Assembly (NCBI RefSeq): GCF_028737315.1
Contig: NZ_JAQZAO010000002.1
Span: 496,001 to 560,000 of the forward strand
Length of the DNA stretch: 64,000 bases
Direction of reading: 5' to 3'
Source of the DNA: Actinomycetospora lemnae
GTDB lineage: Bacteria; Actinomycetota; Actinomycetes; Mycobacteriales; Pseudonocardiaceae
The notes beneath the pieces were generated by a model. The model had not been told where the DNA came from. It saw nothing but the letters and a program-made list of their open reading frames with translations, and searched no databases. How positions within the stretch are numbered: position 1 is the stretch's first letter; each line of letters opens with the position of its first letter. Shown in pieces: positions 4,753-33,369 of this stretch. The position numbers were made by a program, and so were the translations under genes.

Positions 4753-5553
4753 TCACCAGCGGTGGGTGGCCCGCTCCCCCGCCTCCAGGTAGGACGCGTC
4801 GAGCCACGGCGGCAGCTCGGCGGGCACGTCGACCTCGGCGCTCTCACCACGGAACGTGACGAGCGCGCGCCGGCCGTCGTGGAGGACCTCGACGTGCTCG
4901 AGGTTGCGCGGCTCGCCCGGGTCGTGCCCGAGCGCGGCGGCCGCGAAGCCGCGCAGCAGCGCCGAGTGGGAGGACACCAGCGTGGTCCCGTCCCCGAGGG
5001 CGCGGATCCCGGCCCACGCCCGGTAGGCGATCACCTGGGGCGGCTCGAAGTGGAGGCTGACGAGGTCCATCCAGCGGTCGATCGGGCCACCGAGGCGCGA
5101 GCCGGCGCCGTAGTCGGTGTCGAAGCGGTCGTAGGCGCGGACCCAGTCCGGTACGCCGGCCCCGTTCTCCTCGAACCGCAGCCGGTGGGCGGCCACCCCG
5201 GACGACTCCCGGGCTGCGCCGTCGTGGAGGAACTGGAGGCTGTCGAACCGCGCGTCGGGGCGCAGGTCGCCGAGGTCGAGGTCGTCGCGGCGGGCGGCGA
5301 GCACTGCCCGGAGCGTCCGCGCGGTCGCGGTGGCCCGGGCCGTGGGCGCGTGGACCATCGCGATCGCGGCGCCGTCGGGCAGGTCCGCGGCGAGCTCGGC
5401 GGCCTTCGCGCGGCACTGCTCCTCGCCGTGCTCGGTGAGCCCGACGTCGTCGAAGTAGCCGTGGGTCTCGCCGTGGCGGATCAGCAGTACCCGCCCGTCG
5501 GGTCGAGCTCCCCGATCGGCGTGCTCCCCCTGATCGTCCGTCTCCCGAACCAT
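4753..5553 (-). CDS. Histidine phosphatase family protein (phosphoglycerate-mutase fold), copy 1
   Basis: The RHG motif is at residues 26-28 (LLIRHGETHGYFDDVGLTEHG), the first catalytic Arg-His; the second catalytic His is near 196 in SSHSALLRG. At 266 residues it is a complete single-domain enzyme. It shares the unusual endings LGHDPGEPRN and VDVPAELPPW with the second phosphatase at 32230-33369, so the two are paralogues. The gene starts 19 bases after the FMN oxidase gene, in one minus-strand unit whose upstream region carries a copy of the shared inverted repeat. I infer a small-molecule phosphatase of the aromatic pathway, by comparison with CreD-type aryl-phosphate hydrolysis; the substrate is unproven. 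Confidence 0.85.
   Translation of the reverse strand: MVRETDDQGEHADRGARPDGRVLLIRHGETHGYFDDVGLTEHGEEQCRAKAAELAADLPDGAAIAMVHAPTARATATARTLRAVLAARRDDLDLGDLRPDARFDSLQFLHDGAARESSGVAAHRLRFEENGAGVPDWVRAYDRFDTDYGAGSRLGGPIDRWMDLVSLHFEPPQVIAYRAWAGIRALGDGTTLVSSHSALLRGFAAAALGHDPGEPRNLEHVEVLHDGRRALVTFRGESAEVDVPAELPPWLDASYLEAGERATHRW
5501..5534 (-). repeat. 34-base repeat, copy inside phosphatase coding sequence
   Basis: Bases 5501-5534 match 27871-27904 at 31 of 34 positions without gaps. Here the sequence encodes residues 7-18 of the phosphatase, just before the conserved VLLIRHG strand. In the other copy the same sequence is the leader, with ribosome-binding site, of the 4-oxalocrotonate decarboxylase gene. 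This suggests that the phosphatase N-terminus was built from a duplicated leader. Confidence 0.85.
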
Positions 5554-5572
5554 GCCGACCACCCTGGCGTGA

Positions 5573-6904
5573 TCAGCCCCGCGCCTGCACGGCGGGTTCC
5601 GCCGTGGCGAACGGGGCGAGCTCGAGGTCGGCGACGGTGCGCGCACCGGCGAGGGCGAGGGTGAGGTCCAGCTCGGCGAGGACGTCGCGGATCACCTGGG
5701 ACACGCCCGCCGCCCCGGCCAGCGCGAGGCCGTAGACCCAGGGCCGGCCCAGGCACACCGCGGTGGCGCCGAGGGCGAGCGCGCGGGCGACGTCGGACCC
5801 GCTGCGGATGCCGGAGTCCAGCAGTACCGGTGCCCGCCCGTCGACCGCCTCGGCGACCCCGGGCAGGGCGTCGAGCGCCGCGACGCCGCCGTCGACCTGG
5901 CGCCCGCCGTGGTTGCTGACGAGCACGCCGTCGACGCCGTGGTCCAGGGCGCGGCGCGCGTCGTCGGGGTGCAGGACGCCCTTGAGCACCACGGGCAGGC
6001 GCGTGCGCGAGCGCAGGGTGGCGATGTCGTCCCAGGAGAGCGTCGGCCGGGAGTACACGCGCAGGAACGTCTCGACCGCGGCGCGCGGCAGCGGCGAGCG
6101 CAGGTTGTCGAGGAACGCGCCGGGGTGGTGGCGGCTGATCTCGAGCAGCGTGCGCACGGCCGCCGGCGTGGGCGTCGGCGACGGGCGCCGCGTCGATGGT
6201 CCGGCTCCGCTGCGCTTCGCGTCCGAGGCCCTGTCCGCGGTCTCCTGCGTGAGGCGGGCGAAGACGGGGTCGGACGTGTACTGCGCGATGCCCAGGCCGC
6301 GGGCGAACGGCAGGTGCCCGAGGTCGAGGTCACGCGGGCGCCACCCGAGCGTCGTCGTGTCCAGGGTGACGACGACCGCGCCGGCACCGGCCGCCTCGGC
6401 GCGGGCCAGGAAGCTGTCGACGAGGTCGTCGGAGGTCGACCAGTAGAGCTGGGACCACCAGCCCGCCGTCGCCCGCGGCGCGATCTCCTCGGACGGGTGG
6501 CCGGCCTGGTTGGACACGATCATCGTCACGCCCGCGTGGGCGGCGCCCTCGGCGACGGCGAGGTCGGCGCGGCGGTGCACGAGGTCGCAGGCGCCGATCG
6601 GGGCGAGCAGCAGGGGGTGCTCGTGGCGGTGGCCGAAGATCTCGACCGAGGTGTCGCGCTCCCCCACCCCGCGCAGCATCCGCGGCACGATGCGGTGGCG
6701 CTCGAAGGCCGCCCGATTGGCGCGGACGGTCTCCTCGCTGCCGGCGCCGCCGGCGACGTAGGCGTGGGCGCGCCGCGACATCACCCGGCGCGCCCGCCGC
6801 TCCAGCGCCGGGAACGCGGTCGGCACCACCGGCCGCCGCCCCGTGATCCCGCCCCGGTAGACCTCGTCCTGCCGCACGCGTCCGCTCGGTGTCACGGGGT
6901 GCAT
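5573..6904 (-). CDS. FMN-dependent alpha-hydroxy-acid oxidase (lactate 2-monooxygenase-like)
   Basis: The 443-residue protein has the TIM-barrel hydroxy-acid oxidase signatures: HPLLLAPIGACDLVHRRAD near the N-terminus for FMN binding, LPVVLKGVLHPDDA with the flavin Lys, and VSNHGGRQVDGG containing the catalytic His. The protein is longer than glycolate oxidases and resembles lactate 2-monooxygenases, which oxidise an L-2-hydroxy acid with O2. The ATG at 6904 is the only sensible start. A repeat-derived insertion (DAKRSGAGPSTRR) near residues 227-236 enlarges the variable loop over the active site. It leads an operon with a histidine phosphatase and lies divergent from a SnoaL-like gene, with a CGTTCC-N7-GGGACC site between. 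Confidence 0.85.
   Translation of the reverse strand: MHPVTPSGRVRQDEVYRGGITGRRPVVPTAFPALERRARRVMSRRAHAYVAGGAGSEETVRANRAAFERHRIVPRMLRGVGERDTSVEIFGHRHEHPLLLAPIGACDLVHRRADLAVAEGAAHAGVTMIVSNQAGHPSEEIAPRATAGWWSQLYWSTSDDLVDSFLARAEAAGAGAVVVTLDTTTLGWRPRDLDLGHLPFARGLGIAQYTSDPVFARLTQETADRASDAKRSGAGPSTRRPSPTPTPAAVRTLLEISRHHPGAFLDNLRSPLPRAAVETFLRVYSRPTLSWDDIATLRSRTRLPVVLKGVLHPDDARRALDHGVDGVLVSNHGGRQVDGGVAALDALPGVAEAVDGRAPVLLDSGIRSGSDVARALALGATAVCLGRPWVYGLALAGAAGVSQVIRDVLAELDLTLALAGARTVADLELAPFATAEPAVQARG
6198..6224 (+). repeat. 27-base repeat within coding sequence, copy 1
   Basis: The 27 bases beginning GGTCCGGCTCCGCTGCGC recur at 32251-32277 with one mismatch. Here the element lies antisense in the oxidase gene and encodes DAKRSGAGP in a loop; there it lies sense, near the N-terminus of a phosphatase. 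Both positions are in low-constraint protein regions, as expected for a small repeat tolerated in coding DNA. Confidence 0.85.
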
Positions 6905-7544: not shown

Positions 7545-8453
7545 ATGACTGCGCCTGCGAAGGTCCCGGCCGCGATCGTCGGGCCGGGCAACATCGGCAC
7601 CGACCTGCTGGCCAAGCTCGCGCGCAGCGCGCGGATCGAGGTCACGGCGATGGTCGGGGTGGTCGAGTCCGAGGGCCTCGATCGGGCGCGGGCGATGGGC
7701 GTGCCCGCGTCGGCCGAGGGCGTCGACTGGCTGCTGCGCCAGGACCCGCTGCCCCGCATCGTGTTCGAGGCGACCTCGGCGAAGGCGCACCAGGCGAACG
7801 CGCCGCGCTACGCCGAGGCCGGCATCCGCGCGATCGACCTGACCCCGGCCCACCTCGGGCCCATGGTGTGCCCGGCGGTGAACATGCCCCACCACCTCGA
7901 CGCCCCGAACGTCAACATGATCACCTGCGGCGGCCAGGCCACGATCCCGATCGTCGCCGCGGTCTCGCGGGACGCGCCGGTGGCCTACGCCGAGATCGTC
8001 GCCTCGGCCGCCTCGCGGTCGGCCGGGCCCGGCACGCGGGCCAACATCGACGAGTTCACCCAGACCACGGCCCGCGCGGTCGAGGAGGTCGGGGGCGCCG
8101 AGCGCGGCAAGGCGATCATCATCCTCAACCCCGTCGAGCCGCCGATGATCATGCGGGACACGGTGTTCTGCTCGCTGCCCGAGGGTGCCGACACCGACGC
8201 CGTCGGGGCCTCGATCCACGCGATGGTCGAGCGCGTCCAGCAGTACGTGCCGGGCTACACGCTGCGCGCCGAGCCCCAGTTCGACCCGCCCTCGGAGAAG
8301 TGGGGCGGGTGCGGCCGGGTCGCGGTGTTCCTCGAGGTCAAGGGCAACGGCGACTTCCTGCCCGAGTACGCCGGCAACCTGGACATCATGACGGCGGCCG
8401 CCGCGCAGGTCGGCGAGCTCGTCGCCGCGGAGATGACGGAGGTGGCGGCATGA
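7545..8453 (+). CDS. mhpF: Acetaldehyde dehydrogenase (acylating), meta-cleavage pathway
   Basis: This enzyme converts acetaldehyde, NAD+ and CoA to acetyl-CoA. The 302-residue protein has the N-terminal Rossmann motif [12 protein letters not shown], the strand [10 protein letters not shown], and the active-site Cys at about residue 128 in [14 protein letters not shown], all typical of the BphJ/DmpF/HsaG/MhpF family, at the family length. It overlaps the aldolase start by four bases (ATGA), matching the family's known tight dehydrogenase-aldolase complex in which acetaldehyde is channelled. A CGTCCC-N7-GGAACG site lies 42 bases upstream. Confidence 0.95.
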
Positions 8454-9484
8454 GCCGGCCCGAGATCAGGCACGACGTCCGCATCACCGACACGACCCTG
8501 CGCGACGGCAGCCACGCGCAGGCGCACCAGTTCACGGTCGAGCAGGTGCGCGACACCGTCCGCGCACTCGACCGGGCCGGCGTCGAGGTCATCGAGGTGA
8601 CCCACGGCGACGGGCTGGGCGGCTCCAGCTTCAACTACGGCTTCTCGCACACGAACGAGCTCGAGCTGATCGCCGCCGCCCGCGAGGAGGCGAAGCAGGC
8701 CCGCATCGCGGTGCTGCTCGTGCCCGGCATCGGGACGGTCGACGACCTGCGCCGCGCCCGCGACGCGGGGGCCGACGTCGTGCGCGTCGCCACCCACTGC
8801 ACCGAGGCCGACGTCAGCCCCCAGCACTTCGGGGTCGCCCGCGACCTGGGCATGGAGACCGTCGGTTTCCTCATGATGGCCCACCGGACCTCGCCCGAGG
8901 ACCTCGCGAAGCAGGCCCGGATCATGGTCGACGCCGGCTGCCAGTGCCCGTACGTCACCGACTCCGCGGGCGCGCTGCTCATGCACGACGCCCGCGCCCG
9001 TTTCGAGGCGCTGATCGCCGAGGTCGGCGACGAGGCGTGGGTCGGCTACCACGGCCACCAGAACCTCTCGCTCGGCGTCGCGAACTCCGTGATCGCCGCC
9101 GAGGTCGGGGTCAAGGAGATCGACGGCTCGCTGTGCGCGCTCGGCGCCGGATCGGGGAACTCGCCCACCGAGGTGCTCGCCGCGGTGTTCGACCGCATGG
9201 GCATCGAGACCGGCCTCGACGTCACCGCCCTGCTCGACGCCGCCGAGGACGTCGTGCGCCCCTACCTGCACCGCTGGCCGAAGATGGACCGCAACGCCAT
9301 CACCCAGGGCTGGGCCGGGGTGTACTCCAGCTTCCTGCTCCACGCCGAGCACGCCGGCGAGCGCTACAAGGTCCCGGTGCCCGACATCCTGCGCCGCTGC
9401 GGCGAGCTCGGTCTCGTCGGCGGCCAGGAGGACATGATCATCGACATCGCCCTCGACCTCGCCCGCGAGCGGGAGCAGGGCTGA
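8450..9484 (+). CDS. mhpE: 4-hydroxy-2-oxovalerate aldolase
   Basis: The 344-residue protein belongs to the DRE-TIM metallolyases. It starts [19 protein letters not shown], giving the Arg and Asp of the active site, and carries the metal-binding [15 protein letters not shown]. Length and sequence match BphI/DmpG/HsaF/MhpE, which split 4-hydroxy-2-oxoacids into pyruvate and an aldehyde. The ATG at 8450 overlaps the dehydrogenase stop, and the GTG of the tautomerase gene starts two bases after its stop. It is the next-to-last step of the meta-cleavage pathway, fed by the hydratase encoded at 27917-28720. Confidence 0.95.
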
Positions 9485-9485
9485 C

Positions 9486-9890
9486 GTGCCCGTCCTCGAG
9501 ATCCACCTCGTCGAGGGCGACCACGATCCCGACGACGTGACCCGCCTGCTGCACGAGGCGAGCCGGCGCTACGCCGAGGTGCTCGGGTCGCCGCTGGAGC
9601 GCATCCGGGCGTTCGCGACGCCGCACGCCCGCGGGGACGTCGTGGTGGGCGGGGAGGCCGGCGGCGCGCCCGCGCCCTACTTCACCGCCGTCGTGCTGGA
9701 GGGCCGCCCGGTGGAGCAGCGCCACCGCCTGCTCGCCGACCTCACCGAGGTCATCGTCGAGCACCTCGGGGTGGAGCGCTCGCGGGTGCGCGGGCGGATC
9801 GTCCAGGTCCCGCCCGACGACTGGGCCATCGGCGGCGTCCCGGCCTCCGGCGCCCGCCGGGACGAGATCGCGGCGCGGGCGTCCCGGTAG
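9486..9890 (+). CDS. Tautomerase-superfamily protein, fused double-unit type
   Basis: The protein starts with Met-Pro (GTG CCC), so Pro-1 is available as the catalytic base after Met removal. At 134 residues it holds two beta-alpha-beta units: VLEIHLVEGDHDPDDVTRLL and YFTAVVLEGRPVEQRHRLLADL. This resembles fused 4-oxalocrotonate tautomerase or cis-CaaD/MSAD-like enzymes rather than the 62-67-residue single-unit form also found here at 26844. It closes the dehydrogenase-aldolase operon. It may tautomerise a 2-hydroxydienoate, but its exact reaction is not certain. Confidence 0.85.
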   Translation: MPVLEIHLVEGDHDPDDVTRLLHEASRRYAEVLGSPLERIRAFATPHARGDVVVGGEAGGAPAPYFTAVVLEGRPVEQRHRLLADLTEVIVEHLGVERSRVRGRIVQVPPDDWAIGGVPASGARRDEIAARASR

Positions 9891-14308: not shown

Positions 14309-16090
14309 ATGGCCAACGTGGTGCCGGTGGACGAGTTCGCCACGGGCGAGTGGTACCCGGGCTACCGGCCCGAGCACTTCGCCGCGCCGTACATCGTGGA
14401 CGCGGCGGGCCCGTTCAGGCCCGGGGACGAGCAGGGCTTCTGGTTCCTCGACTTCCACTGGTCGCGCGGCCTGACCCCGCTGGCGGCGACGCTGTGGAGC
14501 GCGGACGGCTACTGCTGGGGCACCCAGCACGCCGCCGAGGCGCTGCCCCTCCCGCCGGGCCGCGGGATCACCGCCCGCTTCGCCGGCACGCACCTCTACG
14601 GCTGCGCGCTCCCCGAGACCGACCCCCGCGAGATCGGGGCCCGTGCCAACCGCATCGCGACCAACCTCCCGCACTTCCTGCAGAACTACCGCCCCATCTG
14701 GGAGGCCGGTCGCGACGAGCTGGAGGCCACCTGGCAGTACTTCCGCGGCGTCGACTTCGCGGGCATCCCGGACCTCACCGACCTGCTCACCCAGGCCCGG
14801 CGCTACCACAAGCGCTCGATGGAGATCCACTTCGGCGTCATGTACCCGATGCTCGCGAACTTCCTCGGCTTCTACGGGGCCTGCGCCGACATGGGGATCA
14901 ACCCGGCCGAGATCGGCAAGTTCCTCCAGGGCGAGGACACCAAGATCATGGAGACCGACCGCGAGCTCTACAAGCTCGCCCTCAAGGCCCGCCAGGTCGG
15001 CCTCGCGGCGGTCTTCGAGGAGAACGAGCCGCACCAGCTGCGCGAGGCGCTGGGCCGCCAGGGCGGCGCCGCGTCGGTCTGGCTGACCGAGTTCGACGAC
15101 TTCCTGCAGATCTACGGCTGGCGCGCCGAGGCGACCTGCGACGTCGGCGTGCCGAGCTGGATCGAGGACAACACGATCCCGCTGGGCCTGGTCAAGACGT
15201 TCCTCAAGAAGGACGACGAGCACGACTTCGAGGCGGCCGCCCGCAACGCGCGCGCCGAGCGCGACGAGGCCATCGACAACGCCCGCGCCGGGCTGACCCG
15301 GGAGGAGCAGGCCGTCTTCGACGCCGGCCTCGCGTCCAACCAGGCCGCGAACTTCCCCTGGTGGCAGGACGACCACAACTACTACATCGACCTCAAGGTC
15401 ATGCTGCCGCTGCGCTGGGGCTGCCAGGAGCTGGCGCGGCGCGAGGGCGCCGACCACCAGGACGACATGCTCTACCTGTTCTGGCCCGAGCTGCAGGACG
15501 TCGCGAGCGGGCGGCGTCCCTACGCCGGCGAGCTGCGCAGCCTCGTCCGGGATCGCCGCCAGTACTTCGACCACTGGCACGCCAAGCGCGGGGACATGCC
15601 GAAGGTGCTCGGGACGATCCCCGAGTCGGTCGAGGACCCGGTCCTCATCGAGATCTTCGGGCTCAACCCGGCGTCGATCAAGGCCGTGCAGGACCCCGAC
15701 GCCGCGAAGCAGACCGTGATGTCGGGCGTCGCCGCCGCGAAGGGCACCGCGCGGGGCATCGCCCGGGTGCTCCAGTCGTCCGACGAGCTGCACCGCCTGG
15801 AGCCCGGCTCGATCCTCGTCTGCGAGTCGACCTCGCCGAACTGGACGCCGGCGTTCGGGAAGATCGCGGGCGCGGTGTGCGACGGAGGCGGCATGCTGTC
15901 CCACGCGGCGATCGTCGGGCGCGAGTACGGCGTCCCGACGGTCACCGCGGTCGGCGTCGCGACGCTGTCGATCTCCGACGGCGACGAGATCGAGGTCGAC
16001 GGCACGAACGGCACCGTCACGATCCTGAGCAAGGCCCCCACCACCACCCCGGACACCGCCGCCGACGCCCCCGCGGGAGTCGCCGGGTGA
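14309..16090 (+). CDS. PEP-utilising enzyme with swivelling His domain (phenylphosphate synthase PpsA / CreH-I-like subunit)
   Basis: GAGGAGG lies just before the ATG, an excellent ribosome-binding site. The 593-residue protein ends in a PEP-utiliser mobile domain: GMLSHAAIVGREYGVPTVTA with the phospho-acceptor His at about 532, preceded by KGTARGIARVLQSSDELHRL. The first 480 residues are helical and match no part of ordinary PEP synthase; a PEP/pyruvate barrel is not seen. Size and domain order fit the 70-kDa subunit of phenylphosphate synthase and the aryl-kinase subunits used for p-cresol phosphorylation in Corynebacterium. Its stop overlaps or closely precedes the ATP-binding partner. I infer ATP-driven phosphorylation of a phenol. 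Confidence 0.8.
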   Translation: MANVVPVDEFATGEWYPGYRPEHFAAPYIVDAAGPFRPGDEQGFWFLDFHWSRGLTPLAATLWSADGYCWGTQHAAEALPLPPGRGITARFAGTHLYGCALPETDPREIGARANRIATNLPHFLQNYRPIWEAGRDELEATWQYFRGVDFAGIPDLTDLLTQARRYHKRSMEIHFGVMYPMLANFLGFYGACADMGINPAEIGKFLQGEDTKIMETDRELYKLALKARQVGLAAVFEENEPHQLREALGRQGGAASVWLTEFDDFLQIYGWRAEATCDVGVPSWIEDNTIPLGLVKTFLKKDDEHDFEAAARNARAERDEAIDNARAGLTREEQAVFDAGLASNQAANFPWWQDDHNYYIDLKVMLPLRWGCQELARREGADHQDDMLYLFWPELQDVASGRRPYAGELRSLVRDRRQYFDHWHAKRGDMPKVLGTIPESVEDPVLIEIFGLNPASIKAVQDPDAAKQTVMSGVAAAKGTARGIARVLQSSDELHRLEPGSILVCESTSPNWTPAFGKIAGAVCDGGGMLSHAAIVGREYGVPTVTAVGVATLSISDGDEIEVDGTNGTVTILSKAPTTTPDTAADAPAGVAG

Positions 16091-16110
16091 CCGCCGCCCC
16101 GGAGGTACGC

Positions 16111-22399: not shown

Positions 22400-23749
22400 G
22401 TGCTGACCGCCGAGCAGAACGAGGAACTCACCGCCGTCGAGGCCGGCACGCCGATGGGCGAGGTGCTGCGCCGCTACTGGTACCCCGTCGCGTTCACCCG
22501 CGAGCTCGAGGAGTTCCCGGTGAAGCGGGTGGAGCTGCTCGGCGACTTCTTCGCGCTGTGGCGCTCCCCGTCCGGGCGGTACGGGATCATCCCCGAGCCC
22601 TGCCCGCACCGGAAGGCGTCGATGGCCTACGGCGTCGTGGAGGGCGACGGGCTGCGCTGCCCGTACCACGGCTGGAAGTTCGACACCGACGGCGCGTGCA
22701 CCGACCAGCCCGCCGAGAAGGACAACACCAACTTCCAGGAACGGGTGCGCGCCACCGCCGGCAAGGTCGAGGAGCTCGGCGGGCTCGTGTGGGCCTACGT
22801 CGGGCCGGATCCGGCGCCGCTGCTGCCGCGCTTCGACGTCTACGTCATGGACGGGTTCCGCGACATCGGCTGGGCGGACATCCCCTGCAACTACGTGCAG
22901 GTCATGGAGAACGCCGTCGACCCGCACCACGTCGAGCACCTGCACGGGCGCTACTTCGAGTTCATCGGACGCCACGAGGGCTTCGAGGCCCCGCCGTCGT
23001 TCGGCAAGAAGCACCAGCGCATCGGGTTCGACGCCTTCGAGTGGGGCATCATCAAGCGCCGCGTGCTCGCCGGCGCCAGCGAGGACAACGACGACTGGAA
23101 GGTCGGGCACCCGCTGGTCTTCCCGTACAACATGCGGGTCGGGGGCGGCGGCATCCACCAGATGCAGATCCGCGTGCCGATCAACCGCACGACCACCCGG
23201 TTCATGCTCTACACCGTCCACGCCCCCGAGGGCTACGAGCCGGTGGAGCAGCAGACGGTGCCGGACTACGAGATCCCGGTGTTCGACGAGCGCGGGCACC
23301 ACGTCGTCAACTACGTCGAGGGCCAGGACATCATGGCCTGGGTGACGCAGGGGCCGATCACCGACCGGACCACCGAGCACCTCGGCCGCTCCGACATCGG
23401 CGTCGCCATGCTGCGCAAGATGTTCCGCCAGCAGATGGCCGCGGTCGCGAAGGGCGAGGACCCGCTGGGCACCATCCGCGAGCCGCACGAGCGCATCGAC
23501 CTGCCCTGCGAGAAGGACAAGTTCCACGCCGGCGGAGCGACCTTCGCGCTGGACTTCTGCCGGATGGGCTCCACGCGCTACTCCCCCGCGCTCGAGACCA
23601 TCCGGCAGGTGCACCTGTCAGCGGCCGCGCGCGTCGAGGCGGACCAGGAGGCCGGACGCCCGTCGTTCACCCCCGCCGGGGGCATCGGCACCGCGACGCT
23701 CCCGCCCGACACCTCGGCACAGGTGGACTCGGGACTGATCCCGCGGTGA
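22400..23749 (+). CDS. Rieske non-haem iron oxygenase, alpha subunit
   Basis: The 449-residue protein has a Rieske [2Fe-2S] domain with CPHR (Cys at about 68, His 70) and CPYHGW (Cys at about 87, His 90), and a catalytic domain with NAVDPHHVEHLHG for mononuclear iron. The layout resembles phthalate-dioxygenase-type or O-demethylase-type single-subunit oxygenases. GGGAGGG lies before GTG 22400. The gene is followed 11 bases later by a zinc-ribbon protein, and a Rieske ferredoxin is encoded at 26495-26836. It could hydroxylate, or demethylate, the aromatic substrate before ring cleavage. Confidence 0.9.
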   Translation: MLTAEQNEELTAVEAGTPMGEVLRRYWYPVAFTRELEEFPVKRVELLGDFFALWRSPSGRYGIIPEPCPHRKASMAYGVVEGDGLRCPYHGWKFDTDGACTDQPAEKDNTNFQERVRATAGKVEELGGLVWAYVGPDPAPLLPRFDVYVMDGFRDIGWADIPCNYVQVMENAVDPHHVEHLHGRYFEFIGRHEGFEAPPSFGKKHQRIGFDAFEWGIIKRRVLAGASEDNDDWKVGHPLVFPYNMRVGGGGIHQMQIRVPINRTTTRFMLYTVHAPEGYEPVEQQTVPDYEIPVFDERGHHVVNYVEGQDIMAWVTQGPITDRTTEHLGRSDIGVAMLRKMFRQQMAAVAKGEDPLGTIREPHERIDLPCEKDKFHAGGATFALDFCRMGSTRYSPALETIRQVHLSAAARVEADQEAGRPSFTPAGGIGTATLPPDTSAQVDSGLIPR

Positions 23750-23760
23750 GACTGTCCGCC

Positions 23761-24000
23761 GTGACGGTCCCCGACGGCTCCCCCGGCGCGAAGATCGACC
23801 GGCGCTTCGCCGCGGACGTCGAGGCCCACCGCCGCGACGCCCCCCGGTTCTGCCCGGCGTGCGCCCGCGACCTGGGGCTCGCGACCGAGTTCTGGGAGGG
23901 CGACGCCCGCCGGTTCTACTGCTGGTGCGCGACCTGCGGCTGGACGGGCGAGGTCACGACCACCGGCGAGACCGTGGTCGGGCACGAGCCGGAGCACTGA
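23761..24000 (+). CDS. Small zinc-ribbon-like protein
   Basis: This 79-residue protein has two Cys pairs, CPAC near residue 32 and CWCATC near 54, spaced as in a zinc ribbon or rubredoxin-like knuckle, with aromatic residues between (TEFWEGDARRFYC). It begins 11 bases after the Rieske oxygenase stop; an in-frame GTG at 23746 overlapping that stop would add five residues. I do not recognise a named family. The tight linkage suggests a helper or electron-transfer partner of the oxygenase, but a structural role is as likely. Confidence 0.65.
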   Translation: MTVPDGSPGAKIDRRFAADVEAHRRDAPRFCPACARDLGLATEFWEGDARRFYCWCATCGWTGEVTTTGETVVGHEPEH

Positions 24001-26494: not shown

Positions 26495-26836
26495 CTACTC
26501 CCGGGCGTGCGCCCGCAGGCGCTCCGACCACGACAGCGCCCGCGGAGGGTCGCCGACGTCGGCGTACAGGACGCCGTCCACCTCGCGCAGCGGGTGGACG
26601 CCGAGCACGTGCTGCGGGGATGTCGGGCACGCGCCGGTGTCCAGGTCGAAGCGGTACCAGTGCCACGGGCAGACGAGGGTGTGGCCGTCGCGGACCCAGC
26701 CCTGCTCCAGCGGACCGCGGTTGTGCGGGCACACGGCGTCGACGACGCGGTAGCCGTCCTCGACCGCGAGCACGACGAAGCGCCGGCCATCGTCGCTGGT
26801 GACGACGCCCGGCGCGTCGACGCGCACCAGACTCAC
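26495..26836 (-). CDS. Rieske ferredoxin
   Basis: This 113-residue protein is a stand-alone Rieske domain: CPHNRG with Cys36 and His38, and CPWHWYRFD with Cys56 and His59, followed by GVHPLREVDGVLYADVG. GTG 26836 is seven bases after the 4-OT stop, so it is the last gene of the catabolic minus-strand operon. It should pass electrons to a Rieske oxygenase, most likely the one at 22400-23749. No reductase gene is seen in the window. Confidence 0.9.
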   Translation of the reverse strand: MSLVRVDAPGVVTSDDGRRFVVLAVEDGYRVVDAVCPHNRGPLEQGWVRDGHTLVCPWHWYRFDLDTGACPTSPQHVLGVHPLREVDGVLYADVGDPPRALSWSERLRAHARE

Positions 26837-26843
26837 GGCGGGG

Positions 26844-27047
26844 TCACCGCCGGCCCGAGGCCCGCAGCGACGCCAGCGACTCACCGCCCACGAACCAGTG
26901 CTCCGGCTCGCACTCGGTGACGACGACCCGGACGTTCTCGGCCGGGGCGCCGACCGCACGCGTCACGGCGGCGGTGACCTCCTCCCCCAGCGCGGCGAGC
27001 TGCTCGGGGCTGCGGCCCCGGGCGAGGGTGATCTGCACGAGCGGCAT
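26844..27047 (-). CDS. 4-oxalocrotonate tautomerase-type enzyme
   Basis: The 67-residue protein begins MPLVQITLARGRSPEQL, giving Pro-1 and the conserved Arg-11, and includes VRVVVTECEPEHWFVGGES, the hairpin of 4-OT. It should convert 2-hydroxymuconate to 2-oxo-3-hexenedioate, in the oxalocrotonate branch of meta-cleavage. Its place directly after the decarboxylase gene, with a palindrome between them, supports this. An additional double-unit tautomerase is at 9486-9890. Confidence 0.9.
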   Translation of the reverse strand: MPLVQITLARGRSPEQLAALGEEVTAAVTRAVGAPAENVRVVVTECEPEHWFVGGESLASLRASGRR

Positions 27048-27065: not shown

Positions 27066-27107
27066 CGTGAGCGATCTTCGGAGCTATGGCTCGAAAGTTC
27101 GCTCACG
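27066..27107. terminator. Gene-end palindrome with GTGAGC/GCTCAC arms (P2)
   Basis: CGTGAGCGA (27066-27074) pairs with TCGCTCACG (27099-27107), with an inner arm around GAGC-TATG-GCTC. The TGA of the decarboxylase gene lies in its right arm (minus strand). It sits between two genes of one operon, so it may attenuate or process the message rather than end it. Confidence 0.75.
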
Positions 27108-27870
27108 TACAGGCGAGCTCGACCGTCCCGAGGCGGTCGATGGTCACGGTCACGACGTCGCCGGCGACGACGGGGGTGGCGGCGGTCAGGCCGCCGGACA
27201 GGACGACCTCGCCGGCGGCGAGGCCCTCGCCCGACGCGGCGAGGCGGCGGACCAGCCAGGCGACGGCCGCCGCCGGGTGGCCCAGGGACGCCGCGCCCGA
27301 GGCGGTGGCGACGAGCTCGCCGTTCTTCTCCAGCAGCACGCCGACGAGGCGCACGTCGATGCCCGCCGGCGGCACCGGCGTGCCGACGACGAAGCGCGCC
27401 GCCGAGGTGTTGTCGGCGACCACGTCGGCCATCGTGAAGCGGTAGTCGCGGAACCGGGAGTCGAGGATCTCGATGCCCACCGCGAGCCCGGAGGTCGCCG
27501 AGAGCACGTCGGCCGCGGTGACGTGCTCGCCGGCCAGGTCGCGGCCCAGCACGAACACGATCTCCGGCTCGGCGCGGGGCTGGATCAGCTCCCCGGTGCG
27601 CAGGGGCGCGCCGAGGTCGAGCGCCGCGCTGCCCGGCAGGAACCCGCAGACCGGGTCGGACACCCCGACCTGGGCCTGCTTCGCCCGCGACGTCACCCCG
27701 AGCTTCCAGCCCACCCGCGGGCCGGCCTGCTCGCGCAGCACGCGCTGGACGGCGTACCCGGTCTCGAGGTCGAGGTCGGTGACGTCGTCGGTGAGCGGGT
27801 CGATCGCGGTGCGCTCGGTGACGGCCTTGGTCAGCCGGGCCGCCAGCTCCTGGACGTCCGCGCCGCTCAT
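27103..27870 (-). CDS. 4-oxalocrotonate decarboxylase (DmpH/XylI-type fumarylacetoacetase-fold)
   Basis: This 255-residue protein has family motifs VGWKLGVTSRAKQAQVGVSDPV, PRAEPEIVFVLGRDL with the acidic metal ligands, and VLSGGLTAATPVVAGD, closer to 4-oxalocrotonate decarboxylase than to the paralogous hydratase beside it (which has MTGALHAAVPLAAGD). In the family these two enzymes form a complex. It should remove CO2 from 2-oxo-3-hexenedioate. The leader carries AGGGGAG and is the 34-base repeat shared with the phosphatase at 4753-5553. The assignment of which paralogue is decarboxylase rests on these motifs and on the neighbouring 4-OT. Confidence 0.85.
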   Translation of the reverse strand: MSGADVQELAARLTKAVTERTAIDPLTDDVTDLDLETGYAVQRVLREQAGPRVGWKLGVTSRAKQAQVGVSDPVCGFLPGSAALDLGAPLRTGELIQPRAEPEIVFVLGRDLAGEHVTAADVLSATSGLAVGIEILDSRFRDYRFTMADVVADNTSAARFVVGTPVPPAGIDVRLVGVLLEKNGELVATASGAASLGHPAAAVAWLVRRLAASGEGLAAGEVVLSGGLTAATPVVAGDVVTVTIDRLGTVELACT

Positions 27871-27916: not shown

Positions 27917-28720
27917 TCAGTCCTCCACCACCCTGATCGTCACCGGCCCCAGCCGGTCGAACTCCGCGCGGAACACGTCGCCCGCGGCCAGCGGGACCGC
28001 CGCGTGCAGGGCGCCGGTCATGATCATGTGACCGGGCTCGAGCGCCACGCCGGCCTCGCCGAGCACGTTCGCCAGCCAGGCCACCACCGCCAGCGGGTCG
28101 CCCAGCGCCGCCGCGCCCGCCCCGGTGTCGACGAGCTCGCCGTTGCGCGTGAACGTCATCCCGATCAGCCGGGTGTCGAGGCCCGCCAGCGGCACGAGCC
28201 GCGAGGACACCGCGACCGCGCCGTTGGACGCCATGTCGGCGACGGTGTCGGCGAGCTTGATCCGCCAGTCGACGATGCGGGAGTCGACGATCTCCATGGC
28301 CGCCGCGACCCCGGCGATCGCGGGCGCGACGTCGGTGGGCCCGACGCCCGGGCCCTGCAGCCGCGAGCCGAGCACGAAGACGATCTCGGCCTCGACCTTG
28401 GGCTGGATGAAGCGCGAGAGCGGGATCGCGTCGCCGTCGCGGTAGACCGTCGACGCCAGCGTCGGGCCGTAGTCCGGGGTGTCGATACCGATCATCTTCT
28501 GCATCGCCGCCGACGTGACGCCGACCTTGTGCCCGACGACCCGGTCGCCGTCGGCCAGCAGCAGCGGGACGAGCTCCTGCTGGATCGCGTAGCCGTCGGC
28601 CATCCCGAGGTCGGGCTCGCTGTCGGTGAACGGCGGGATCGGCACCCGCGTGCGCCGCGCCTCGTAGAGCGCACGCGCCTTCGCCTTGATCGGATCGTCC
28701 GGGGCGTCGGTGACGGCCAC
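27917..28720 (-). CDS. mhpD: 2-hydroxypenta-2,4-dienoate hydratase (2-keto-4-pentenoate hydratase)
   Basis: The 267-residue protein shows GHKVGVTSAAMQKMIGIDTPDYG, PKVEAEIVFVLGSRL (metal-binding Glu residues), AMEIVDSRIVDWR and the C-terminal MTGALHAAVPLAAGD, matching hydratases that add water to 2-hydroxypentadienoate to give 4-hydroxy-2-oxovalerate, the substrate of the aldolase at 8450. The GTG at 28720 abuts the IclR stop, so translation is probably coupled. It lies in the operon unknown protein - IclR - hydratase - decarboxylase - 4-OT - ferredoxin. Confidence 0.9.
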   Translation of the reverse strand: MAVTDAPDDPIKAKARALYEARRTRVPIPPFTDSEPDLGMADGYAIQQELVPLLLADGDRVVGHKVGVTSAAMQKMIGIDTPDYGPTLASTVYRDGDAIPLSRFIQPKVEAEIVFVLGSRLQGPGVGPTDVAPAIAGVAAAMEIVDSRIVDWRIKLADTVADMASNGAVAVSSRLVPLAGLDTRLIGMTFTRNGELVDTGAGAAALGDPLAVVAWLANVLGEAGVALEPGHMIMTGALHAAVPLAAGDVFRAEFDRLGPVTIRVVED

Positions 28721-29512
28721 TCAGCTCTCCTTCTCGAGTAGGGGTGCCTCTTCCGACCAGCCGAGACGGCGGGACACGGCCTCGCCCGCCTCGACGACCG
28801 TGCGCGCCAGGCGTTTGCGGGGGATCGCGCGGAACCGGCTGACCGGCGCGCCGATGCCGATCGCGGCGACGACGACCCCGCGCGCGTCGCGGATGGGGGC
28901 CGCGAGGGACGCCACGCCGATCTCGCGCTCGTCGACGGCGTCGGCCCAGCCCCGGGCGCGCACGGTGGCCAGCGCCCGGCGCAGCTCGTCGGGGTCGGTG
29001 AGCGTGTGCTCGGTGTGGCGGGCCAGGGTCGCGGTGGCGAGGTAGCGCTCGCGGACCGGTTCGGGCGCGAAGGCCATGAGCACCTTGCCCGAGCTGGTGC
29101 AGTGCACCGGCACACGGCGACCGGTCTCGGTGAACAGCCGCAGCGCGTGGCTCGACTCGAGGCGGTCGACGTAGACGACGTCGTGGCCGTCGAGCATCCC
29201 GACCTGCGTGGACTCGCCGGTCTCCTCGCGCAGGTGGGCGAGCACCGACCCGGCCGCGGCGTGCAGGTCCATGTGCACGCGCACCGCCTCGCCGAGCTCG
29301 AAGACGACGAGACCGAGGCGGTAGCCGCCGGTGTGCGGGTCCTGCTCGACGAGCCCCTCCGCGGCGAGCGTGGTCAGCAGCCGGTGCACCGCGCTCTTGC
29401 CCAGGCCCAGCCGCCGCGCGAGCTCGGAGACCCCGAGCGACTCCTCGCGCGTGAGGAACGCCTTGAGCAGCCGCGCGGCATTGGTGACCGTCTGCAGGGG
29501 CGCGTCGCTCAC
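28721..29512 (-). CDS. IclR-family regulator (copy 2 of 3)
   Basis: The 263-residue protein has the IclR winged helix (TVTNAARLLKAFLTREESLGVSELARRLGLGKSAVHRLL in parts) and an effector domain with GYRLGLVVFELGEAV, YVDRLESSHALRLF and TSSGKVLMAFAPE. It is embedded in the meta-cleavage operon, overlapping the upstream unknown gene by four bases and abutting the hydratase gene. A pathway-specific activator or repressor is likely, and it is a good candidate to bind the inverted repeat at 30235-30253. Confidence 0.9.
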   Translation of the reverse strand: MSDAPLQTVTNAARLLKAFLTREESLGVSELARRLGLGKSAVHRLLTTLAAEGLVEQDPHTGGYRLGLVVFELGEAVRVHMDLHAAAGSVLAHLREETGESTQVGMLDGHDVVYVDRLESSHALRLFTETGRRVPVHCTSSGKVLMAFAPEPVRERYLATATLARHTEHTLTDPDELRRALATVRARGWADAVDEREIGVASLAAPIRDARGVVVAAIGIGAPVSRFRAIPRKRLARTVVEAGEAVSRRLGWSEEAPLLEKES

Positions 29513-30198
29513 GCCGGCTCCTCCGTGAACGACGCCAGCAGCACCTTGCGCACCGCGTCCGGGTCGGGCGTCGCGCCCGGGCGCAGGGCGGCGTCCACGG
29601 CCTCGCCGACCGCCGCGTCGTACGGGCGGATCGCGCGGGCCAGCAGCACCTGGGCCCGGGCCAGCCCGGCGACCGCTGCGCCCTCCATCTCGTCGACCAG
29701 CGCCTCGCGGCCCCGGGCCCGGTCGCGCAGGCGCTCGAAGTCGCGCGCCGCGGCCGAGTGCGCGCTCGCCAGGCCCGAGCCGACGTGGCCCGCGTGGTGC
29801 GGGGACAGACCGGAGCCGGGCTGGGTGACGACGTGGTAGACGACCGTGGAGATGCCGAGTGCGGCCCGCACCTTCTCCGACGCCGGGCCGTCGGACTCGT
29901 CGATCAGCCCGAGGGCGGGCACGACGACCGGGTCGTAGAAGCGCACGACCCACTCGAGGCCCTCGGCCGACCCCGGCACCTCCACCTCCTGCCCGCGCGG
30001 CGGGCCGAGGCCCTCGGTGGTGGCGAGGATGTGCAGGTTGCGCGCGCCGACCGCCGCGACGGTGAGGCGTCCGGCGGCCAGCAGCGGCAGGCGCCCCTGC
30101 ACCGCGGGCGGGAACGTCGTCGCCTGCTGCAGGTAGGCCCGGTGGACGCCCTCGACGTAGCCGGCGACCGCGCGGCGCATCGCCATCGGGTCCGCCAT
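29509..30198 (-). CDS. Protein of unknown function leading the meta-cleavage operon
   Basis: I do not recognise a family for this 229-residue protein. It is soluble and mostly helical, starts MADPMAMRRAVAGYVEGVHRAYL, and has a central region with GARNLHILATTEGLGPPRG and VRFYDPVVVPALGLIDESDG, then a His-rich stretch YHVVTQPGSGLSPHHAGHVG that could bind metal or a cofactor. GGAGGGGG precedes the ATG. It overlaps IclR as GTGA and is first behind the divergent operator, so its product is probably needed with the pathway. It could be a sensor partner of IclR, or an enzyme of the missing semialdehyde step, but this is a guess. Confidence 0.75.
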   Translation of the reverse strand: MADPMAMRRAVAGYVEGVHRAYLQQATTFPPAVQGRLPLLAAGRLTVAAVGARNLHILATTEGLGPPRGQEVEVPGSAEGLEWVVRFYDPVVVPALGLIDESDGPASEKVRAALGISTVVYHVVTQPGSGLSPHHAGHVGSGLASAHSAAARDFERLRDRARGREALVDEMEGAAVAGLARAQVLLARAIRPYDAAVGEAVDAALRPGATPDPDAVRKVLLASFTEEPA

Positions 30199-30335: not shown

Positions 30336-31250
30336 ATGGGAATCCTGCGCCTGGCCCACGTGGACGTCCGTACGCCCGACCTGGATCTCTCGACCGCGTA
30401 CTACACCGAGGTCATGGGCCTCCAGCAGGTCGCGCGGACCGAGGACTGCGTCTACCTCAAGTGCTGGGACGAGGAGGACCACCACTCCCTGCGGATGCGC
30501 TACAACCCGCGCACCGGGATGGACTCCTTCACCTTCCGCGTGGAGGAGGAGGACGACCTCCACGACCTGGAGAAGAAGGTCGAGGCGTACGGCTGCCCGA
30601 CGTCGCGGGTCAGCCGGGGCGAGGCCGTCGGCCAGGGCGAGTCGATCCGGTTCGAGGTGCCGTCGGGCCAGATCATGGAGCTGGTCTGGGACATCGAGAA
30701 GACCGGCAACGTGCTCGGCAAGCGCAACCCGGCGCCGGTGCCGCCGCCCGACCTGCCCGGCATCGCGCCCCCGCGCATGGACCACATGCTGGTCAACGCC
30801 GAGGAGGTCGCGGAGTCCGCGGCCTTCTTCATCGACGTGCTCGGCATGCGCATGACCGAGCAGGTGCTCGACGGGAACGGCCACCAGCTCGGCGTGTGGC
30901 TCGCGGGCAACACCCGCTCCCCGCACGACATCGCCATCGTCAACGGCCCGAACGGCGCGCTGCACCACTGGGCCTACTGGCTCGACGACTGGGACCACAT
31001 CCGCCAGGCCGCCGACACGCTCGCCTACAACGGCGTCCAGATCGACCAGGGCCCGACGCGCCACGGCGTCACGCGCGGCAACACCATCTACTTCTTCGAC
31101 CCGCTCGGCATCCGCAACGAGGTCTTCACCGGCGGCTACTGGGTCGACCCCGACACCGAGATCCTCACCTGGACCGAGGACAACTTCGGCAAGGGCCTCT
31201 TCTACTACGAGAACGTCGTCAGCCAGCGCTTCCTGCGGATGCACACGTGA
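30336..31250 (+). CDS. Extradiol ring-cleavage dioxygenase (catechol 2,3-dioxygenase type), copy 1
   Basis: The 304-residue protein has two VOC repeats. Iron ligands are visible at His150 (PRMDHML), the second His of ALHHWAYW (about 211) and Glu262 (IRNEVFTGGYW); the catalytic His (SPHDIAIVNG) and Tyr (TIYFFDP) are present too. It should open a catechol ring next to the diol. Start ATG 30336 follows AGGGAG. Its N-terminal half (LAHVDVRTPDLDLSTAYYTEVMGL) is the degenerate non-metal domain. A related dioxygenase follows 44 bases later. Confidence 0.95.
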   Translation: MGILRLAHVDVRTPDLDLSTAYYTEVMGLQQVARTEDCVYLKCWDEEDHHSLRMRYNPRTGMDSFTFRVEEEDDLHDLEKKVEAYGCPTSRVSRGEAVGQGESIRFEVPSGQIMELVWDIEKTGNVLGKRNPAPVPPPDLPGIAPPRMDHMLVNAEEVAESAAFFIDVLGMRMTEQVLDGNGHQLGVWLAGNTRSPHDIAIVNGPNGALHHWAYWLDDWDHIRQAADTLAYNGVQIDQGPTRHGVTRGNTIYFFDPLGIRNEVFTGGYWVDPDTEILTWTEDNFGKGLFYYENVVSQRFLRMHT

Positions 31251-31294: not shown

Positions 31295-32233
31295 GTGGCC
31301 ACCACCTCCGACCGGATCATCCGGCTGCAGCACGTCGAGGTCCGGGTCCCCGACCTGGAGCTCGCGACCGCCTACTACACCGAGGTCCTGGGCCTCGTGG
31401 AGACCGCGCGCGACGAGAGGGACGGCGCCCCGCGGGTGTTCCTCAAGTGCTGGGACGAGCGCGAGCACCACTCGGTGATCCTGCGCGAGGCCCCCACCTA
31501 CGGCCTCGACCACATGTCGTTCAAGCTCAACGAGGCCGGCGACCTCGACCACTTCACGACGAAGCTCGAGGCGGCCGGCGTGCCGGTCAAGCGCTTCGCC
31601 GCCCGCGAGCTCGGCCCGGGGTGGGGCGAGGCGATCCGCTTCGACGCGCCGTCGGGCCACCTCGTGGAGCTGACGCACGGCACCGAGCGCATCGGCAACA
31701 TGCTGCCGCGGACGAACCCGCCGCCCCGGCCCCAGGACCTCATCGGCATCGCGCCGCCGCGCCTGGACCACCTGTTCGTCATGGCCGAGGACGTCGAGGC
31801 GTTCACGGCGTTCTTCACCGAGCTGCTCGAGTTCCGGCTCACCGAGCAGATCCTCGCCAACGACGGCCACCAGCTCGCGACGTTCCTCGAGCACTCCCAC
31901 ACCCCGCACGACATCGCCGTCATCACCGGGCCGAACGGGGCGCTGCACCACTTCGCGTTCTGGATGGACGACTGGAACGGCATCCGCGAGGCCGCCGACG
32001 CGCTCGCGTACCACGGCGTGACGATCGACGTCGCCCCCACGCGCCACGGCGTCACCCGCGGCTACACGACCTACTTCTTCGACCCGGCCGGCAACCGCAA
32101 CGAGCTCTTCACCGGCGGCTACTGGGTGGACCCCGACTTCGAGCCGATCACCTGGACCGAGGAGGAGATGGGGCGCGCCATCTTCTACTACCACCGCCAG
32201 GTCAACGAGCGCTTCTTCACGGTGCACTCGTGA
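31295..32233 (+). CDS. Extradiol ring-cleavage dioxygenase (catechol 2,3-dioxygenase type), copy 2
   Basis: The 312-residue protein is a close homologue of the preceding enzyme, with ligands His159 (PRLDHLFV), the second His of ALHHFAFW (about 219) and Glu270 (NRNELFTGGYW), and the catalytic PHDIAVITG and YTTYFFDP regions intact. Both copies thus look active and may differ in substrate or form mixed oligomers. GTG 31295 has AAGGAG nine bases upstream. Its stop overlaps the GTG of the phosphatase gene (GTGA), so phosphatase and dioxygenase are translationally coupled. Confidence 0.95.
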   Translation: MATTSDRIIRLQHVEVRVPDLELATAYYTEVLGLVETARDERDGAPRVFLKCWDEREHHSVILREAPTYGLDHMSFKLNEAGDLDHFTTKLEAAGVPVKRFAARELGPGWGEAIRFDAPSGHLVELTHGTERIGNMLPRTNPPPRPQDLIGIAPPRLDHLFVMAEDVEAFTAFFTELLEFRLTEQILANDGHQLATFLEHSHTPHDIAVITGPNGALHHFAFWMDDWNGIREAADALAYHGVTIDVAPTRHGVTRGYTTYFFDPAGNRNELFTGGYWVDPDFEPITWTEEEMGRAIFYYHRQVNERFFTVHS

Positions 32234-33369
32234 CCGGCACTGAGCAACGGGGTCCGGCTCCGCTGCGCTCCGCGTCCCAGGACCGGCCCGACGCCCGCTC
32301 GGTGCACCGGTACGAGGCCCCCGACTACCTGTCCCGGTACCGCTCGCGCCGGGGCGGGGACAACGCGCCCACCTCCGACCGCGCCAGCGCCGCGGCCGCG
32401 CCGGCCGCACCCGAGGCCCCGCCCGAGGGTGACGGCACGCCGCTGTACCTGCGCCGCTTCCGCGAGCGCGGGGCCGCCCCGGCGGAGACCGTCGAGTACG
32501 AGGGCCGGACCTTCACACCGGCGCTGGCCGAGGCGAGCCGCGGCAAGGAGGTCGCGGCGCCCATGGAGCGCCGGGCGTCCGAGAAGATCGTCTGCGAGAT
32601 CTCGATCATCCGGCACGGCATCACCCAGGGCTACTCCACCGACGCGGGCCTCACGCCCATGGGCGGCTGGCAGGCCCACCGCCGGGGCCACGAGCTGGCC
32701 CGGCGCTTCGACCACGGCGACCGCGTGCGCCTCGTCTGCGCCGACACCAACCGCGCCCGCCAGACCGCCGACCAGCTCTACAACGGCGTCACCGACGGCC
32801 TCCAGATGTGGGGCATCGACGCCGAGGTCACCGAGAAGGAGCCGATCCCGGAGCTGCGCAACTTCGGGGTGTGGACCCCGGACGGGCTGCGCGACGTCAC
32901 CTCGGCGTTCCGGCAGTACCAGGCCACCAACGAGACCCTCGAGCGCCTCGCCGTCGGCGACCGGCCCCGCTGGCTCGTCGAGATCGACCGCTTCTACCGC
33001 ACGCAGCTGGGCGGGGCGGACCCGATCCAGGAGTGGCTGACGATCCCGATGATGTACTTCGAGCCGCCGGCGATGTGCGTGCGCCGCTTCTGGCGGGGGT
33101 TCCACCGGTTGATCACGGAGTCGACGCAGCCCGACGGCTCGGTCAGCCACCGCCGCATCCTCGCCGCGACGCACTCCGGGCCGATGCGGGCGTTCGCCAC
33201 GTGGGCCCACGGCTACGACCCGGGCGAGCCGCTGAACACCGAGGAGATCCGGGTCAAGATGCGTGAGGGCTGCCGCACCGCCTTCGTGTCGTACCGCAAC
33301 CGGGTCACCGAGGTGAACGTGCCGCCGCCGGACGAGTTCCCGCGGTGGGAAGAGATCGGGGAGTCGTGA
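32230..33369 (+). CDS. Histidine phosphatase with disordered N-terminal extension (copy 2)
   Basis: At 379 residues it is much longer than usual. About 115 N-terminal residues are Ala/Pro/Arg-rich and disordered, with two similar segments, APDYLSRYRSRRG-like (YEAPDYLSRYRS) and LYLRRFRERGAAP. The catalytic domain has RHG at 128-130 (ISIIRHGITQGYSTDAGLTPMG), the second His at about 315 (AATHSGPMRAF), and the endings HGYDPGEPLN and VNVPPPDEFPRW shared with the phosphatase at 4753. It is coupled to the second extradiol dioxygenase. I infer that it frees a catechol or phenol from its phosphate ester just before ring cleavage. Confidence 0.85.
   Translation: MTGTEQRGPAPLRSASQDRPDARSVHRYEAPDYLSRYRSRRGGDNAPTSDRASAAAAPAAPEAPPEGDGTPLYLRRFRERGAAPAETVEYEGRTFTPALAEASRGKEVAAPMERRASEKIVCEISIIRHGITQGYSTDAGLTPMGGWQAHRRGHELARRFDHGDRVRLVCADTNRARQTADQLYNGVTDGLQMWGIDAEVTEKEPIPELRNFGVWTPDGLRDVTSAFRQYQATNETLERLAVGDRPRWLVEIDRFYRTQLGGADPIQEWLTIPMMYFEPPAMCVRRFWRGFHRLITESTQPDGSVSHRRILAATHSGPMRAFATWAHGYDPGEPLNTEEIRVKMREGCRTAFVSYRNRVTEVNVPPPDEFPRWEEIGES
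32251..32277 (+). repeat. 27-base repeat within coding sequence, copy 2
   Basis: It encodes residues 8-16 of the phosphatase (GPAPLRSAS region) and matches 6198-6224 with a single mismatch. Orientation relative to the host gene is opposite to copy 1. Confidence 0.85.

Follow-up and report, generated by a model that had tools for sequence, protein, structure and literature searches.

Several bacterial routes for phenolic compounds place a phosphate on the substrate before its ring is converted. The Cre system of Corynebacterium glutamicum (CreHI, CreJEF, CreG, CreD and CreC) handles p-cresol aerobically with a two-component dikinase, an oxygenase (the P450 CreJ, which acts on phosphorylated cresol) and a phosphatase. 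In the Hpe/Acv system for acetovanillone (HpeHI, HpeCBA and HpeD), a two-component dikinase is followed by conversion of the phosphorylated ring compound, in this case by a biotin carboxylase, and by a NagD-like HAD phosphatase. Phenylphosphate synthase (PpsAB) of Thauera and Aromatoleum, which has a comparable domain split and phosphohistidine mechanism, works anaerobically and is followed by carboxylation. Our comparison with these systems draws on three reports (PMC9618137, PMC12167813, PMC13101465) and, for the cre gene order, on a table in a fourth (PMC7764795). Why phenol catabolism begins with phosphorylation is called unclear in the HpeHI report (PMC12167813). Here we analyse a window of 64,000 nucleotides from Actinomycetospora lemnae, in which a two-component dikinase (kinA, kinB), a Rieske oxygenase (RO) and a histidine phosphatase (HP2) accompany genes for catechol meta-cleavage. 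The logic would be common to Cre, Hpe/Acv and Pps; new would be the other kinase clade, the Rieske oxygenase, the histidine phosphatase and the direct feed to catechol cleavage.

Catechols are also made from methoxyaromatics by GcoAB, VanAB, LigXa, DdmC and LigM, which differ from the route considered here in having no phosphorylation step. Most of these enzymes act on carboxylated substrates. A 2026 review of catechol funnelling lists GcoAB and LigM among the makers of catechols from methoxyaromatics and names the P450 GcoAB for guaiacol; neither 'Rieske' nor 'phosphorylat' occurs in its main text (PMC13406360). Among the titles and abstract openings given by literature searches, nothing ties a dikinase to a Rieske or LigM demethylase.

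Results

A PpsA/PpsB-like gene pair at 14309-17232 had been recognised in an earlier note on this DNA, and its coordinates hold. kinA (PF00391) and kinB (PF01326) overlap by GTGA, and the swivel/substrate and ATP-grasp parts lie on these separate, side-by-side genes. The predicted phospho-acceptor of KinA, His532, is located within GGGMLSHAAIVGREYG. This histidine and the GG of the motif are invariant across 22 KinA homologues, and Cys524 occupies the T/S place of T/SxxGGxxxH. When the AlphaFold (AF2) model of KinA (pLDDT 89.5) was submitted to Foldseek, ranks 1-6 were all rifampin phosphotransferases (RPH), aligned over ~580 columns, and matches to PPDK mostly covered the swivel domain only. 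An RPH-type fold has likewise been diagnosed for HpeH (PMC12167813). KinA shares 24-28% identity with CreH-, HpeH- and PpsA-like proteins from named plasmids and from the A. lemnae genome itself, among them the CreH-like protein of a cre-like Rhodococcus cluster (~27%) and an Azoarcus relative of PpsA (~25%). To six members of the phenolic clade (PpsA/CreH/HpeH), which share 37-54% among themselves, its identity is 24-27%, and in a tree of 44 rows the branch between the KinA clade and the phenolic-kinase clade received 100% SH-aLRT support. Because of the RPH fold, the low identity and the split in the tree, KinAB is predicted to be an RPH-type dikinase with two components that belongs to a distinct clade. 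The earlier idea of an aryl-kinase pathway stands in so far as a dikinase of the phenol type is kept together with an oxygenase and a phosphatase in a conserved unit that yields catechol, whereas the kinase pair itself falls outside the PpsAB/CreHI/HpeHI clade.

The KinA clade, which would be the second such group of two-component dikinases and a widespread one, occurs in Actinomycetota, Gammaproteobacteria, a Bradyrhizobium, a Marinimicrobia bin and a Thaumarchaeota bin. Searches of the literature and the PDB gave no characterised or solved member. Orthologues with 81-93% identity were present in 17/17 congeners searched, and only G054 and Haloechinothrix alba (G056), among 102 other relatives, had a KinA with at least 60% identity. 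The A. lemnae genome encodes further members of the wider family. A paralogue, kinA3, on contig C4 is accompanied by an inositol-monophosphatase and two MetE-like genes, and no kinB match was found in two 20 kb stretches. Contig C11 (L077) carries an Hpe-like cluster of a kinase pair, a biotin carboxylase and a NagD-like HAD phosphatase.

RO stands where CreJ stands in the Cre system, as the earlier note had supposed, and a Pfam scan of the window's open reading frames in 1-40 kb gave no P450 match. The nearest solved relatives of RO are phthalate dioxygenase-like chains. The CxH...CxxH cluster and the 2-His site (C71, H73, C90, H93, H180 and H185) are invariant in 15 homologues. Other invariant residues of RO are K222/R223/R224 and K206/H208. 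RO is single-copy in the genome (next match 28%) and was found in 17/17 same-genus genomes searched. Homologues form two groups, ~50% identical to each other, each of which adjoins a dikinase: RO2 faces kinAB, and RO1, the type in the window, follows a phenolic-clade kinB2-kinA2 pair in G054. Three congeners (G001, G007, G009) have a single kinA-type match each (E<=1e-20), yet retain RO, both catechol 2,3-dioxygenases (C23O1 and C23O2) and HP2, which favours kinAB as RO's partner within the genus.

The two related histidine phosphatases noticed before at 4753 (HP1) and 32230 (HP2) both belong to His_Phos_1 and are 36% identical. They are the sole genome matches to the HP2 protein at E<=1e-3 and lie ~27 kb apart, and two random genes would be this close with a chance of ~1% by simple arithmetic. 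The translational coupling of one of them to a catechol dioxygenase is borne out, as the HP2 start overlaps the C23O2 stop codon by GTGA; G054 and a Marinimicrobia genome bin likewise have coupled or abutting C23O-phosphatase gene pairs. In HP2, the RHG motif and the second catalytic histidine are invariant in 6 homologues, as expected for branch 1 of the histidine phosphatases. Its AF2 model has a mean pLDDT of 69, being mostly above 70 in the catalytic part and low in the first ~116 residues. The top fold matches were RosC and Rv2419c, small-molecule histidine phosphatases, with E-values of ~2e-8 to 4e-8 and a TM-score by target of ~0.5-0.6. An HP2-type gene was found in 17/17 same-genus genomes searched. 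Outside the genus the family was seen in 3/82 related genomes (G054, G056 and G058), the first two of which are those with KinA at or above 60%. The third, G058, lacks a kinA of this clade; at 2-3 kb from its HP-family gene lie LigM-like and IclR3-like matches, both partial, and this locus (L210:9753-13441) is perhaps a remnant of a LigM version of the cluster.

Two further expectations about these phosphatases were not borne out. As counterparts of CreD, HP1 and HP2 (PF00300) were rejected: in a cre-like cluster of Rhodococcus ruber the CreD position is taken by a PF01966 HD-domain protein, a comparison made by gene order and not by CreD sequence. Nor was HP1 retained as a partner of kinAB. 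In eight congeners (G002, G005, G006, G008, G010, G011, G012, G017) HP1 follows the gene for an FMN dehydrogenase and lies, beyond a SnoaL gene, near a kinB2-kinA2-HAD module, which by coordinates sits between SnoaL and acetaldehyde dehydrogenase in seven of the eight; in G008 the contig ends. Another eight congeners have HP1 at 190-325 kb from kinA or on a different contig; in the three of these whose HP1 region was read (L207-L209), the 20 kb held no kinase match. The kinB2-kinA2-HAD module is absent from the window, where SnoaL and acetaldehyde dehydrogenase are 106 bp apart (7438-7545).

A HAD phosphatase gene was sought in five genomes. It is single-copy (E<=1e-10) and adjoins kinA in G001 and G003, is single-copy and within 3 kb in Haloechinothrix alba, and has three copies in G054, the best of which adjoins kinA; a search with the cluster HAD found none in the A. 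lemnae genome.

One scan of named genomes yielded 79 kinA loci. Four Actinomycetospora paralogue loci (L170, L172-L174) were dropped, and the 16 Actinomycetospora and the 18 Pseudonocardia loci were merged, so that 75 loci gave 43 units. Neighbourhoods are 10-kb flanks; HP2 of Actinomycetospora and Pseudonocardia falls outside them, and many contigs end early. In counts that stand without a background count for other 20-kb stretches, kinB was present in 37/43 units, at least one of four phosphatase families (HAD, histidine phosphatase, inositol-monophosphatase, NagD-like HAD) in 23 and meta-cleavage genes in 17, from Actinomycetota to Gammaproteobacteria and Marinimicrobia. The RO family occurred in 8 units and a phenol-hydroxylase subunit in 9 (8 for each of two subunits). 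Either oxygenase was found in 17/43, and 11/43 combined a phosphatase with one of them. The small zinc-ribbon-like protein encoded after RO (sm) was detected by clustering in 7/43 units, 6 of these with RO, and adjoins the RO family in other genera.

Gene order in two actinobacteria is informative about the product. In Amycolatopsis alkalitolerans, HP, RO, sm, a muconate cycloisomerase-like gene (209 bits, below the cut-off of 335), a catechol intradiol dioxygenase and a muconolactone isomerase are divergent from kinA, kinB, a reductase and IclR3. Haloechinothrix alba has MetE-HAD-sm-RO-HP divergent from the same kinA-kinB-reductase-IclR3 order; the 37 kb read gave no C23O match. The phosphatase-oxygenase-catBAC-like order of Amycolatopsis, together with the Haloechinothrix unit, suggests that the module of kinase, oxygenase and phosphatase probably yields catechol, by whatever route the ring is then cleaved. 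As a separate observation, a Natrinema sp. DC36 plasmid (L095) holds a further kinase-oxygenase-phosphatase set with yet another phosphatase fold: a haloarchaeal dikinase pair, a metallophosphoesterase, the catalytic and beta subunits of a ring-hydroxylating dioxygenase and an aldehyde dehydrogenase.

The position of the oxygenase is interchangeable. Among the units with a KinA sharing 56% or more identity with that of the window (16 units, 48/79 loci), nine contain the RO family, one of them as a fragment at a contig end, and five a LigM-like gene; none has both and two have neither (P=0.005 for no overlap under independence). The remaining 31 loci contain neither RO, at 45% identity, nor LigM. 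The LigM-like protein tested (L171) scored 404 bits to LigM, the vanillate/3-O-methylgallate O-demethylase. In both Nocardioides units the neighbour of LigM has the position and strand of a methylenetetrahydrofolate reductase (MTHFR) match, the contigs presumably being the same. The Bradyrhizobium unit reads kinA-kinB-HAD and then a VanA_C Rieske protein, which among solved structures comes closest to dicamba O-demethylase (DdmC-like). The surrounding genes IclR3, MetE-like and HAD were found with either filling of the slot (L128 and L151; L136 and L171). HAD or HP was present in 9/16 of these units. A P450 of Nocardioides L131 was considered as a guaiacol demethylase and not used; its nearest solved relative is P450cin.

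Discussion

Protein families, conserved linkage, an oxygenase slot that takes Rieske or LigM enzymes, exchangeable phosphatases and, by gene content, a catechol end product were all computed from the genomes. From these we infer the substrate, the sequence of reactions and the action of the oxygenase on a phosphorylated compound. KinAB would move a phosphate of ATP via His532 onto the phenolic hydroxyl group of a small monohydric phenol, most likely a methoxyphenol such as guaiacol. As a Rieske monooxygenase, RO would then oxidise the anionic aryl phosphate, most likely by O-demethylation to catechol monophosphate, from which HP2 (in relatives HAD or other phosphatases) would release catechol. 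The coupled C23Os and the meta-cleavage genes could degrade the latter, whereas the Cre pathway leads to 4-hydroxybenzoate. In support of this, KinA aligns end to end with rifampin phosphotransferase only, and kinA, RO and an HP2-type gene occur together in 17/17 congeners. As a whole, this sequence of phosphorylation, Rieske oxidation, dephosphorylation and ring cleavage seems to us evenly poised between right and wrong. Over a methyl hydroxylation, O-demethylation of a methoxyphenol is preferred as the middle step because LigM-type O-demethylases replace the Rieske enzyme in five units.

LigM-, LigXa- and DdmC-type O-demethylases and phthalate dioxygenases act on carboxylated substrates, and phthalate dioxygenases bind carboxylates. 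Since both kinds of slot enzyme have such relatives, the phosphate could serve as a removable carboxylate mimic. The dikinase would make neutral methoxyphenols anionic for carboxylate-type O-demethylases, be they Rieske enzymes of the phthalate/LigXa or DdmC kind or folate-dependent LigM, and unrelated phosphatases would remove the tag. Kinase and regulator would remain constant, demethylase and phosphatase being swapped. We advance this idea tentatively, as one somewhat more apt to fail than to hold. It offers a testable reason for the initial phosphorylation, namely an anionic handle for demethylases recognising carboxylates. If true, there would be a route from methoxyphenol to catechol other than the P450 GcoAB, useful for lignin conversion.

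Several observations weigh against the proposed pathway. KinA is distant from CreH-, HpeH- and PpsA-type proteins, and its motif opens with Cys524 where T/S has been reported. G054 combines RO1 with kinB2-kinA2 and has kinAB divergent from RO2; the pairing of kinAB with RO1 in the window therefore leans on the congeners in which another such kinase was not found. Arginines at the positions that we take to be phthalate ligands were tried as proof of anion binding by RO and show no evident conservation in the alignment. In 20/43 units, where contig ends or other families could hide some, the four phosphatase families were all absent, and 7/16 of the closer units had neither HAD nor HP. As the A. 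lemnae genome lacks the HAD, dephosphorylation must fall to HP2 or HP1. The 16-unit group and its 56% limit were chosen after the data had been seen.

The units with phenol hydroxylase bear on a different use of the kinase, in which KinAB phosphorylates phenols only to retain them, a phosphatase frees them and the oxygenase, be it the Rieske enzyme or phenol hydroxylase, has free phenol as its substrate. All 9/43 units with phenol-hydroxylase genes lack an RO or LigM match. Such genes lie beside related kinAB pairs in mycobacteria, Nocardia, Streptomyces and Gammaproteobacteria (confirmed by Pfam in L144, L149 and L156, otherwise by clustering). Phenol hydroxylase needs no phosphate, so a handle is not obviously required there and trapping of phenol fits these units; scavenging and trapping are also suggested by the HpeHI authors (PMC12167813). 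However, the phosphatase-oxygenase order beside the kinase and the carboxylate-type O-demethylases in one slot fit a handle better, and the Hpe carboxylase requires the phosphate (PMC9618137). We therefore consider mere retention unlikely.

It is quite improbable that the substrate of KinAB is non-phenolic, for instance an alcohol or, as for RPH, a drug, and that the neighbouring phosphatases perform unrelated steps. The separate clade, with 24-28% identity to phenol kinases, the MetE-like partners without an assigned role and the surroundings of kinA3 would agree with such a substrate, but the meta-cleavage genes that recur from Actinomycetota to Gammaproteobacteria and Marinimicrobia speak for a phenolic one. 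Equally improbable, if not slightly more so, is a phosphate handle with ortho-hydroxylation of phenyl phosphate by RO (from phenol or an alkylphenol) in place of O-demethylation of guaiacyl phosphate, as LigM-like and DdmC-like O-demethylases fill the same slot elsewhere, even though the nearest solved relatives of RO hydroxylate rings and phenol is accepted by HpeHI and PpsAB (PMC12167813).

Gene content of the region

Genes were called from the codon-position GC pattern and from Pfam/NCBIfam profiles. The window, with a GC content of ~75%, sits on a 675 kb contig of the 6.06 Mb genome. The features are compiled in Table 1.

Table 1. Features of the A. lemnae window discussed in the text
Feature	Coordinates	Strand	Profile match or remark
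HP1, HP2 paralogue (36%)	ORF 4753..5646; likely start ATG codon 31, ~4753-5553	-	His_Phos_1 (PF00300)
FMN-dependent 2-hydroxyacid dehydrogenase/oxidase-like, upstream of HP1	5573..6793 (start uncertain)	-	PF01070; NCBIfam matches below cut-off
Acetaldehyde dehydrogenase (acylating)	7545..8453	+	TIGR03215 above cut-off
4-Hydroxy-2-oxovalerate aldolase	8480..9484 (start slightly upstream)	+	TIGR03217 above cut-off
4-Oxalocrotonate tautomerase-like	9669..9890 (ORF from 9486)	+	PF01361; below NCBIfam cut-offs
kinA, substrate-binding and swivel component of putative two-component small-molecule dikinase	14309..16090	+	PF00391
kinB, ATP-grasp component	16087..17232	+	PF01326 (PPDK_N) E=8e-94
RO (RO1), Rieske oxygenase alpha subunit, phthalate-dioxygenase/LigXa type, proposed aryl phosphate oxidiser	22400..23749 (start inferred)	+	Rieske + LigXa_C
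sm, 84-aa zinc-ribbon-like protein	23746..24000	+	double CxxC; overlaps RO stop codon
Rieske-type ferredoxin, possible electron carrier	26495..26959 (ORF; start uncertain)	-	PF00355
2-Oxo-3-hexenedioate decarboxylase-like (DmpH-type)	27103..27870	-	below curated cut-off
2-Oxopent-4-enoate hydratase-like (DmpE-type)	27917..28720	-	below curated cut-off
IclR2, IclR-family regulator	28721..29515 (start uncertain)	-	
C23O1, catechol 2,3-dioxygenase 1	30336..31250	+	TIGR03211 356 bits
C23O2, catechol 2,3-dioxygenase 2, coupled to HP2	31316..32233 (start approximate)	+	TIGR03211 359 bits
HP2, histidine phosphatase (branch 1), proposed phosphate remover	32230..33369	+	His_Phos_1 (PF00300)
IclR3, IclR-family regulator	33374..34192	+	47-56% relatives adjoin kinAB in other genera
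MetE-like zinc methyltransferase-family protein	37573..38730	+	HxC...C; homologues adjoin kinAB in other genera

The region contains a near-complete catechol meta-cleavage set comprising two tandem C23O genes, DmpE/DmpH-like enzymes, a tautomerase, an aldolase and an acylating acetaldehyde dehydrogenase, together with RO, sm, a Rieske ferredoxin, three IclR regulators, a MetE-like protein, HP1, HP2 and kinAB. Both C23Os, a tandem that the earlier note had passed over and whose second copy is coupled to HP2, exceed the equivalog cut-off of TIGR03211 (320.2 bits). No close orthologue of hydroxymuconic semialdehyde (HMSA) dehydrogenase was found in the A. lemnae genome (best 46%); in A. cinnamomea this gene lies beside the aldolase.

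Some further genes deserve mention. A 229-aa protein without a Pfam match (29509-30198) is kept beside IclR2/C23O1 in Actinomycetospora and Pseudonocardia. The protein encoded at 47289-50522 is a fusion of B12-binding, MeaB-GTPase and acyl-CoA mutase domains, an arrangement that we take to be IcmF-like. A formyltransferase-like gene at 11582-12562 (PF00551, PF02911), which seven of the compared congeners also have, could have a role in one-carbon disposal. Proteins with the MetE-like zinc site (HxC...C) accompany the kinA family at 37573-38730 of the window and at L075:4445-5476 and L075:3352-4452, and possibly serve in disposal of the methyl group.

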